Shown here in pieces: positions 19,996 to 26,033 of a stretch of DNA of 41,077 bases (position 1 is the stretch's first letter; the number at the start of each line of letters is the position of its first letter). Position numbers and translations under genes: made by a program. The notes beneath the pieces were generated by a model, which saw nothing but the letters and a program-made list of their open reading frames with translations, searched no databases and was not told the origin of the DNA. The DNA comes from Bacteroidota bacterium. GTDB taxonomy: Bacteria > Bacteroidota > Bacteroidia > Bacteroidales > B18-G4. The DNA lies in contig JAHJRE010000145.1 in NCBI GenBank assembly GCA_018831055.1, forward strand, positions 1 through 41,077. The letters run 5' to 3'.

Positions 19996-20027
19996 GAAAA
20001 GGCATGATAATTAAGGATTTCCTGAGT

Positions 20028-20035
20028 TATATTTG
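20028..20035 (+). promoter_or_regulatory. Candidate -7 box of the moxR-bat operon
   Basis: TATATTTG matches TAnnTTTG exactly and lies 28 bases before the ATG at 20064. There is no clear TTG at the -33 position, consistent with either activator dependence or a chance match. If real, it places the transcript start downstream of the alternative ATG at 20004, supporting the 20064 start. Confidence 0.45.
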
Positions 20036-20063
20036 CCATCAGAATTTAAACATCCGAAATAAA

Positions 20064-21056
20064 ATGATGGAAACTGATATTAAACAACTGAACGAACGCA
20101 TCGAAAAGGAGAGTGCATTTGTTGACATAATCAACATGGAGATGCACAAGGTCATCGTTGGGCAGAAACAAATGGTGGAAAGGCTGATGATCGGGATGCT
20201 TTCAAACGGGCATATATTGCTGGAAGGGGTACCCGGACTGGCAAAGACCCTTGCGATCAAGTCGCTGGCAAACACCATTGATGCACGTTTCAGCCGGATC
20301 CAGTTCACACCCGACCTGTTACCGGCCGACCTTATCGGAACGCTGATCTACAGCCAGAAAAAAGAAGAATTTATTGTGCGCCGGGGACCAATCTTCGCAA
20401 ACTTCATCCTGGCAGATGAAATAAACCGCTCCCCGGCTAAGGTACAGAGTGCCCTTCTGGAAGCCATGCAGGAAAGACAGGTCACCATCGGAGACCAAAC
20501 CTACCCGCTTGAAGAACCCTTCCTGGTTCTGGCTACTCAAAACCCCATTGAACAGGAAGGTACCTATCCCCTGCCCGAAGCACAGGTCGACCGTTTTATG
20601 CTTAAAGTCGTGATCGGTTACCCGAATAAAGAAGAAGAAAAGCGTATCCTGCGCCAGAACATCACCGGCAATTTCCCCGAAACAAGCAAAATCCTTAAAC
20701 CGGAAGACATCATCAAGGCTCGTGACATCGTACGGCAGGTTTACCTGGATGAAAAAATAGAAAACTATATCACCGATATCGTGTTTTCCTCACGTTACCC
20801 GGCCGAATACAAACTTAAAAACTTTGAGCCACTCATCCAGTACGGCGCATCACCCCGAGCTAGTATCAACCTGGCGCTGGCAGCCAAAGCCTTCGCTTTC
20901 ATCCGTCGCCGCGGCTATGTGATTCCCGAGGATGTCAGAGCCATCGCACATGACGTGATGAGACACCGCATTGGCCTCACTTATGAAGCAGAAGCAGAAA
21001 ACATAACCACAGAAGAAATTATTAGTGAGATACTTAATACGGTGGAGGTGCCATAA
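20064..21056 (+). CDS. moxR: MoxR-family AAA+ ATPase
   Basis: A 330-residue AAA+ ATPase, starting at ATG 20064; an in-frame ATG at 20004 would add 20 residues that do not resemble the family. Walker A is GVPGLAKT (55-62), Walker B ILADEIN (115-121), sensor 1 ATQNP (157-161), and the MoxR-type [15 protein letters not shown] and C-terminal lid follow. MoxR ATPases act as chaperones that mature or activate partner vWA proteins. Here it heads an operon with five vWA or Ig-like partners (DUF58, BatA, BatB, BatD), the expected clients. Confidence 0.93.
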
Positions 21057-21072
21057 GGGGGAATTGGTTACT

Positions 21073-21156
21073 GGGGTGTGGGAGCTGGGAGCTGGGAGCT
21101 GGGGGCTGGGGACTGGGAGTTGGGGACTGGGAGCTGGGGACTGGGAGTTGGGGACT
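21073..21156 (+). repeat. Tandem heptanucleotide array GGG(A/G)(G/A)(C/T)T x12
   Basis: Twelve consecutive 7-base units with no spacing error: GGGGTGT, then eleven variants such as GGGAGCT, GGGGACT and GGGAGTT, ending in a partial GGGA. Every unit begins with at least three G, giving thirteen G-runs in about 87 bases and strong G-quadruplex potential in the non-template strand and RNA. It fills the gap between moxR and the DUF58 gene. Seven is not a multiple of three, so this is not a coding repeat. Confidence 0.95.
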
Positions 21157-21237
21157 GGGAAAAGGAAAAAAGATATATTGATTTGAGTTAGAAGTAATGA
21201 GAGTTAAGACCTGAAACAAGAAGCCTAAATCATGCAA

Positions 21238-21292
21238 CCCAGCCCCCAGCAACCCAGCCCCCAGCAACCCAGAACCCAGTAACCCAGAACCC
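21238..21292 (+). repeat. C-rich 15-bp repeat array, inverted partner of the heptamer array
   Basis: A 15-base unit CCCAG(C/A)(C/A)CCCAG(C/T)AA occurs three times in tandem (21238, 21253, 21268) plus a partial fourth. It is made of alternating 7- and 8-base CCCAG units. It is complementary in part to the G-rich array: GGTTACTGGG at 21066-21075 has an exact inverted copy CCCAGTAACC at 21275-21284. The two arrays could pair over a loop of about 75 bases, ending 34 bases before the DUF58 start. Confidence 0.9.
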
Positions 21293-21326
21293 TGATATTA
21301 TAAAACAGGCAATTTTAATCGAAGCG

Positions 21327-22202
21327 ATGGAAACTACCGATATAATCAAGAAAGTCAGAAAAATTGAGATCAAGACCCGGGGGTTATCGAATCAGATCTT
21401 CTCGGGACAATACCATAGTGCCTTCAAAGGCAGAGGGATGGCTTTCAGTGAGGTCCGGGAGTATCAGTACGGCGATGACATCCGGAATATCGACTGGAAC
21501 GTCACGGCCAGATTTAATCACCCATATGTGAAAATCTTTGATGAAGAAAGGGAACTGACGGTGATGCTGCTGATAGACGTAAGTGGATCCAACGAGTTTG
21601 GAACACAAAAGCAGCTTAAAGAGGAGCAAATGACCGAAATCGCCGCTGTAATTGCATTTTCGGCTATCCATAACAACGACAAGGTAGGTGTGATCTTCTT
21701 CAGCGACCGCATAGAAAAATTTATCCCCCCTAAAAAAGGAACCACTCATATTCTGAGAATCATTCGCGAACTTATCGATTTCAAGCCGGTTAGCCAGAAA
21801 ACAAACATTTCCGAAGCATTACGCTTTCTTACCAATGCCTTGAAAAAGAAATGCACGGCGTTCGTGATCTCCGATTTTATCGACAAAGGATTCGACGACG
21901 CCATCAAAATTGCCGGCAATAAACACGATCTGGTTGCCCTCAGGATCTATGACCGCAGGGAAATGGCCATGCCAAACATAGGCCTGGTGCAGGTTTACTC
22001 CAAGGAAGACAGCCGAAGGATCTGGGTTGACACCTCCAGTCCTTCCAATCGTAAAGCATATTCCGCCTGGTGGAAGGATCATGAAAAATACCTGAATAAC
22101 CTTTTCCTGAGAAGTGGTGTTGATCAGGCCATGATAAGCACTGAGGAGGATTATGTTAAACCTCTTATGAATTTGTTCAAACGGAGAGAAGCGAGATTTT
22201 AG
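21327..22202 (+). CDS. DUF58 / von Willebrand-like protein of the bat operon
   Basis: A 291-residue soluble protein. The DUF58 signature GRGMAFSEVREYQYGDD followed by IRNIDWNVTAR (about residues 37-65) leads into a vWA-like fold with a metal-site motif LLIDVSGSNEFG (about 82-93). There is no signal peptide or membrane helix. DUF58 proteins are nearly always encoded next to moxR and are thought to be its direct partners. The stop is followed two bases later by the next gene. Confidence 0.92.
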   Translation: METTDIIKKVRKIEIKTRGLSNQIFSGQYHSAFKGRGMAFSEVREYQYGDDIRNIDWNVTARFNHPYVKIFDEERELTVMLLIDVSGSNEFGTQKQLKEEQMTEIAAVIAFSAIHNNDKVGVIFFSDRIEKFIPPKKGTTHILRIIRELIDFKPVSQKTNISEALRFLTNALKKKCTAFVISDFIDKGFDDAIKIAGNKHDLVALRIYDRREMAMPNIGLVQVYSKEDSRRIWVDTSSPSNRKAYSAWWKDHEKYLNNLFLRSGVDQAMISTEEDYVKPLMNLFKRREARF

Positions 22203-25236: not shown

Positions 25237-26033
25237 AAACAATACTAAACACCGGAATTTTGCTGGCCGTGTTCATTGGTATCATGGCCTTACCTTCATT
25301 TGGACAAAGCGAGGAAAAACTGATCCGCAAAGGTAACCGGGCATACAAGGATGGCAATTTCCAGGAAGCCGGAATAGACTACCTCAAAGCTGTCCAAAAG
25401 GAAAATGCCACGCACCGGGGACTTTACAACCTGGGTAATGTTACCTATGAACAAAACGAATTTGGTGGAGCCACCGCCATTTACGATTCCGTGCTCACAT
25501 TTAACCTGCAGGAGGAGGTAAAAGCCAAGACCTTCTATAATATGGGTAATTCTTTACTCAGGCTGGCCCAGGACAGTGCGGCTATTGCCGGACAGGCTCT
25601 CCCCGCCAGCATTGAATCCTATAAAAATGCTCTCAGGCTGAATCCAGACGATTTTGATGCTAAATATAATCTTGCCTATGCCCAAAAACTCCTGAAAGAT
25701 CAACAACAACAAAATCAGCAGCAGGATCAACAGGATCAGCAAAAGGACCAGCAACAGGACCAGCAACAGGACCAGCAGCAGGATCAGCAGCAACAAGATC
25801 AGCAGCAACAGGATCAGCAGCAACAGGATCAGCAGCAACAGGATCAGCAGCAACAGGATCAGCAACAACAAGGTCAACAGCAGCAAGGACAACCACAACC
25901 CAAGCAAATCTCAAAGGAAGATGCGGAACGAATGTTGCAGGCATTGAAGAACGACGAAAAAAAAACCATGGAAAAGTTGCAGAAAGTAAAGGCCACACAG
26001 GCAAGAAGCGTTAAATCGGAAAAAGATTGGTAG
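25233..26033 (+). CDS. batC: BatC, TPR protein with long Gln/Asp tract
   Basis: A 266-residue exported protein: signal peptide (about 1-25), TPR repeats (about 30-150, motifs such as YNLGNVTYEQNEFGGA and FYNMGNSLLRLAQD), then a low-complexity tract (156-225) of DQQQQ-type repeats, and a short charged C-terminal helix (about 227-266). TPR domains mediate protein binding, presumably to BatA/BatB/BatD. The Gln/Asp tract is encoded by 15-base tandem repeats, so its length may vary between strains. Start overlaps batB by four bases. Confidence 0.92.
   Translation: MKTILNTGILLAVFIGIMALPSFGQSEEKLIRKGNRAYKDGNFQEAGIDYLKAVQKENATHRGLYNLGNVTYEQNEFGGATAIYDSVLTFNLQEEVKAKTFYNMGNSLLRLAQDSAAIAGQALPASIESYKNALRLNPDDFDAKYNLAYAQKLLKDQQQQNQQQDQQDQQKDQQQDQQQDQQQDQQQQDQQQQDQQQQDQQQQDQQQQDQQQQGQQQQGQPQPKQISKEDAERMLQALKNDEKKTMEKLQKVKATQARSVKSEKDW
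25698..25907 (+). repeat. 15-bp tandem repeats coding Asp-Gln4 in batC
   Basis: The core unit is GATCAGCAGCAACAG, found in four exact consecutive copies (25797, 25812, 25827, 25842) flanked by variants at 25782, 25857 and 25872, and by 9- to 12-base DQQ/DQQQ units upstream. Near-identity at synonymous sites indicates recent expansion by slippage or unequal recombination. The frame is preserved because the unit is a multiple of three. Confidence 0.95.

Follow-up and report, generated by a model that had tools for sequence, protein, structure and literature searches.

Introduction

To our knowledge, no explanation has been given for the heptamer arrays that decades of reports have placed in gene gaps, and the S23p proteins (PF05635) form an orphan family known mainly from insertions in rRNA. 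The STRR sequences of filamentous cyanobacteria, whose purpose is unexplained, are tandem heptamers, as is the G-rich array described here; they are defined by fixed units and used for fingerprinting. G-rich heptamers of the types GGGAATC and GGGGA(C/T)T were described in Xanthomonas and Nostoc by Rehm et al. in 2015, with the same stop- and start-related placement that we report below, which was left unexplained; few of the Nostoc repeats were paired, and neither a function nor a link to mobile elements or S23p was given (PMC4692102). In the same year, MacGregor described TAACTGA direct repeats between genes of Beggiatoaceae, Cyanobacteria and Bacteroidetes and read them as sites of a translational regulator (PMC4679880). 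The 23S rRNA intervening sequence (IVS) of Coxiella burnetii contains an S23p open reading frame (ORF) with tandem heptamers (GACAGAT, variable copy number) just upstream of its start, and it is only for the rRNA IVS, in Coxiella, that excision by RNase III has been shown (PMC4990558). S23p itself is similar to Avd, which serves as accessory protein in diversity-generating retroelements (PMC10053308). Our literature search, which had partial coverage, returned no paper tying heptamer arrays, STRR sequences included, to S23p.

Here we analyse an inverted pair of short tandem arrays in the bat operon of a Bacteroidales genome, contained in a stretch of 41,077 nucleotides (the window). The array shares with the heptamers of Rehm et al. 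a GGG-containing seven-base tandem unit, dispersed intergenic occurrence, sense orientation within 50 bp of stop codons, occasional inverted pairing and G-quadruplex potential, whereas its host belongs to the Bacteroidales and its window copy faces a full complementary arm. The likeness to cyanobacterial arrays suggested in the original prediction is thus supported. The TAACTGA repeats are likewise intergenic heptamer arrays, although the unit in the window differs from theirs. As in the Coxiella IVS, the ends are complementary and would form a stem, and loci related to this one contain an S23p gene between such ends; unlike the IVS, the window element is located between protein-coding genes of an operon rather than inside an rRNA gene, and no PF05635 ORF lies between its arms.

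Two facing arrays between moxR and DUF58

The gap is bounded by moxR, which encodes an AAA_3 ATPase (ORF at 20004-21056; PF07726, E 8e-66), and by a DUF58/VWA gene of the bat operon (ORF at 21327-22202; PF01882, E 2e-75), all features being on the forward strand; the names of both genes and of the downstream bat genes are backed by Pfam matches. The left arm (21057-21160), a G-rich array of GGGRRYT heptamers, begins directly 3' of the moxR stop codon TAA (21054-21056). Tandem Repeats Finder calls it at 21079-21160 with period 7 and 11.7 copies. Of the twelve exact-period units originally described, the period stands, whereas the units (GGG-R-R-Y-T) are non-identical, with 74% matches, so that exactness applies to the period only. 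An A-rich spacer of about 75 bases (21161-21235) leads to the right arm (21236-21292), a C-rich array complementary to the left arm and built from alternating 8- and 7-base units (CAACCCAG and CCCCCAG), which is called at 21234-21287 with period 15 and 3.6 copies. By the Tandem Repeats Finder limits the two tracts are 73 bases apart. The C-rich arm ends at about 21292, and the DUF58 start codon, ATG at 21327, follows 34 bases further on.

The arms share inverted matches, such as GGTTACTGGG at 21066 and CCCAGTAACC at 21275, each of which occurs a single time within the window. The segment 21057-21160 contains 14 runs of GGG or longer, and canonical four-tract G-quadruplex motifs are found in it on the sense strand, as judged by sequence motif only. 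The predicted RNA fold of the whole segment has an energy of -116.6 kcal/mol, compared with -87.8 (sd 4.3) for shuffled sequences (z -6.7). The facing arrays, their inverted matches, their distance from DUF58 and their potential to form a quadruplex or a hairpin were therefore all predicted correctly. No PF05635 remnant was detected in the spacer of about 75 bp, an Rfam search gave nothing relevant in the gap region, and a plasmid DNA search with the gap sequence found no similarity. Elsewhere in the window, the TPR gene of the bat operon contains an in-frame 15-bp tandem repeat (CAGCAACAGGATCAG; 25729-25882), which gives its product a Gln/Asp-rich stretch.

The strong predicted fold, the canonical quadruplex motif on the sense strand and the position within an operon all speak for the proposal, made at the outset, that the segment is a local switch setting the ratio of moxR to DUF58. 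The two comparisons that follow, across the genome and across orthologous gaps, make this reading improbable.

Dispersal of the arrays through the genome

A pattern search of the 4.19-Mb draft genome located GGGRRYT arrays at more than a dozen sites beside unrelated genes, with no link to moxR. Arrays of any unit were then counted in a 1.36-Mb sample of this genome, whose contigs were partly picked for arrays, the contigs outside that choice showing the same period-7 excess; gene calls came from a home-made hexamer model, and single start positions are approximate. The sample contains 107 period-7 arrays, in about 80 of 608 gaps (104 kb of gaps), compared with 13 arrays of period 8, three of period 9, one of period 6 and none of periods 5 and 10. 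In an earlier 1.04-Mb sample, 943 kb of coding sequence had three period-7 arrays, and the composition-shuffled gaps had none; the window array is therefore not a product of chance. Several unit families occur side by side in the genome, including GGGAGCT, CAGGTTG, AAGATCG, ATAACCC, TTTAGGG and GAACAAT.

The placement of the arrays is polar. In co-directional gaps, 28 arrays lie no more than 50 bp from the upstream stop codon, and 25 of them are G-rich on the sense strand (25:3); at the same maximum distance from the downstream start, all five arrays are C-rich (0:5). Telomere-like addition of G-rich sequence at both edges of a gap was considered and rejected; convergent and divergent gaps obey the edge rule weakly or not at all, and polarity therefore follows the direction of transcription and not the gap edges.

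Two kinds of mobile palindrome were compared with the window feature. REP/BIME elements moved by a Y1 (RAYT) transposase are also palindromic, extragenic and multi-copy, and often lie directly after stop codons, but the arms in the window are tandem heptamers with no associated Y1 transposase. Behind the only Y1 transposase gene of this genome (contig C221, 1884-2228, locus L043) lie REP-like palindromes of its own in tandem, ATGCGACCCCGCCGGGGTCG, which differ from the heptamer arrays; the latter are absent around the gene, and the window palindrome does not flank it. We rejected REP/RAYT membership, and such an origin is very improbable.

The genome also harbours a dispersed palindromic element of 110-160 bp with three ATTCTGT/ACAGAAT heptamers at each end and a conserved core (..ATTGTCAATGCATTGTAAATAG..), found at C4:7103-7311, C4:9792-9901, C70:3519-3677, C170:17695, C180:3592, and C225:5930 and 7601. 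This element is MITE-like, unlike the other heptamer arrays of the genome, whose spacers differ. That such a family exists, together with the inverted ends of the window feature, would fit a defective MITE of an unidentified transposon. We regard this as quite improbable: the blastn matches of the window feature in the sampled genome are to the repeat arms, none covering the spacer among the matches listed, the arms differ between sites, and a target duplication was not recognised.

The same gap in relatives

The exact GGGRRYT pattern is present in five of 99 genomes, this one included, and absent from the two genomes of the same genus and the six of the same family that were searched. Comparison of 67 orthologous moxR-DUF58 gaps in relatives yielded period-7/8 arrays in 12, with units different from that of the window. 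In the nearest relatives no array was called in the gap, which measures 83, 26 or 0 bp; the 83-bp gap has a weak AGCAGG-like stretch. The site is thus not conserved, even within the genus, and the same arrays adjoin many unrelated genes; the comparison rules out operon-specific regulation as the main reading. The window feature adds a new member to a class of dispersed heptamer arrays; it is not a proven regulator of moxR-bat.

The same comparison revealed S23p genes, or what is left of them, at this very position. Two are intact: one lies in the gap between 8-base arrays (L076), and the other is directly upstream of DUF58, where the contig ends (L080). Two are remnants: an 88-bp piece of an S23p gene, 75% identical (E 2e-14; L077), and an S23p fragment between inverted arms of TAACTG-type heptamers (L232), which recall the TAACTGA repeats. 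The 88-bp remnant shows loss of an S23p gene within the moxR-DUF58 gap.

Inverted arrays around S23p genes

There are five PF05635 genes in the whole genome under study. The arms of one (C13:7321) are of the GGGRRYT type (GGGNNCT) and align with those of the window at E 1.5e-17 and 9e-10. Another (C24) has CAGATCG/CGATCTG (GATC-type) arms, a type also seen as gene-less arrays; a third (C149) has GAGTGTG-type arms, the arms of the fourth (C37) are weaker, and the fifth has none.

We extended the analysis to 35 S23p loci at the level of the order, 30 from relatives and the five above. The score of the left flank against the inverted right flank had a median of 18.5; control genes had a median of 8 (p 5e-11), and so had permuted flanks (p 9e-10). 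In the left flank the array periods were 7 (21 loci) and 8 (9 loci), with no other, and in the right flank they were 7 (19) and 8 (8), with single calls at 6, 11 and 12. A second, independent set of 30 genomes drawn across the phylum Bacteroidota gave a similar picture: a score of at least 12 was reached by 17 of 30 S23p genes, 4 of 35 neighbouring ORFs at the same loci and 3 of 80 permuted pairs, and the array periods were 7 and 8 only. Altogether, by the same score, an inverted pair of short arrays is found at 44 of 65 Bacteroidota S23p genes, as against 14 of 295 genes with gaps on both sides in the genome under study; three of these 14 are themselves S23p genes, and 11 of about 292 (about 4%) remain without them. 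S23p sampling leans to the best PF05635 matches per genome, and about a third of the S23p genes in the two sets have no clear inverted arms. Finally, 16 plasmid-borne S23p genes (15 of them cyanobacterial), retrieved with a consensus-like query, again showed period-7 arrays and inverted arms (p 7e-5); the search of phages for S23p gave no match. The association is strong, was replicated in independent samples and is new to us, although we do not claim priority. It sets apart a variant among the IVS-like elements, one that is found in the gaps of operons.

These elements have a polarity of their own. The 5' arm is G-rich at 39 of 41 S23p genes (p 8e-10), and S23p genes between co-directional neighbours are sense in 43 cases and antisense in 4 (p 3e-9). 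One of the few antisense genes, on the Nostoc edaphicum plasmid pNe_5 (L315), has AGTAGGG/TCCCTAC arms and sits between two ribonucleotide reductase genes. At another locus (L258, G006:C221) a shortened S23p start (MKIKKFEDLEVWKES...) in the upstream flank runs into the arm just 5' of an intact S23p gene and looks like a decaying tandem S23p copy. Three S23p genes on cyanobacterial plasmids (L309, L312, L313) lie in sense orientation in CRISPR operons, in the orders cas6-S23-cas4 and Cmr2-S23-Cmr3, and two of the three have clear inverted arms. PF05635 or 23S_rRNA_IVP genes are on record as CRISPR/cas-associated (PMC3936711, PMC10910872); such reports may reflect hitchhiking by inserts that have arms of their own and lie within cas operons.

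Arm units differ among the S23p loci of a single genome, and the arms are thus not fixed transposon ends; their appearance is that of inverted pairs generated on the spot. In one genome (G001) the arm unit occurs only at the S23p locus, in both arms, while in another (G054) it is also present on three contigs without a listed S23p match.

A possible alternative is that the host makes the arrays, as functionless simple-sequence repeats arising by period-7 slippage or template switching, and that S23p elements only insert into or survive in such sites. In the third of the genome that was sampled, gene-less arrays occupy about 80 gaps, compared with five S23p genes in the genome as a whole, and this count, which is evidence against an S23p origin, means that arrays could be a general host feature where S23p genes settle. 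Units that vary by locus and species, presence in only 12 of the 67 orthologous gaps and a position close to stop codons with promoter-side positions avoided, as for tolerated junk, agree with this, as does the length difference between close strains noted by Rehm et al. (PMC4692102). Yet the host-made reading needs an extra explanation for the near-exclusive period of 7 or 8, the G-first polarity and the inverted pairs at S23p genes (44 of 65 versus about 4%), and insertion into a pre-existing dispersed repeat misfits the genome whose arm unit is confined to its two S23p arms.

It had been foreseen that arrays unlinked to moxR and absent in close relatives would be ordinary simple-sequence repeats. 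Both circumstances largely hold; the conclusion is nevertheless too simple, because period 7 is almost exclusive, polarity is set relative to genes, and inverted pairs mark S23p genes.

Discussion

Our preferred reading, to which we give a probability of about one half, is that the window segment is the pair of arms, with no gene, of an S23p/IVS-like operon element. It consists of inverted 7/8-base tandem arrays of the same kind as those at S23p genes of Bacteroidota and Cyanobacteria, here without a gene inside, and elements of this kind occupy the gaps of operons, the G-rich arm leading. Once transcribed, the two arms would form a long hairpin by pairing, like the ends of the 23S rRNA IVS, and this hairpin would probably be cleaved by an enzyme of the RNase III type, parting the moxR mRNA from the DUF58 mRNA. 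Such a cut would leave both proteins intact, and the operon would therefore tolerate the insert between two of its genes. Loss of the S23p gene from such an element would leave gene-less arrays, G first in the direction of the operon; the polarity of S23p elements, with a G-rich 5' arm and sense orientation in operons, thus explains why gene-less arrays are G-rich after stop codons and C-rich before starts. The window copy may have originated from an S23p element or may once have carried one, and elements of this type may be mobile. Whether S23p causes the arrays or benefits from them, both readings would be compatible with the sequences.

A broader generalisation, which we consider doubtful, is that the intergenic heptamer arrays of Bacteroidota and Cyanobacteria, those of the STRR, GGGGAYT and TAACTGA types included, belong to a single widespread class of IVS-like operon elements, as their arms or footprints. 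The elements of this class would be built around S23p, a four-helix bundle like Avd, and this protein would help to create inverted 7/8-base arrays at each new site, perhaps together with a polymerase or a reverse transcriptase, as Avd does; the role of a polymerase beside S23p is speculation.

The association, which extends across two phyla, offers a simple reason for the recurring reports of CRISPR-associated 23S_rRNA_IVP genes, some of which would be sense inserts in cas operons. It also joins two old puzzles, the heptamer arrays and the S23p proteins, into a single question: do S23p elements make, spread or need heptamer arrays?
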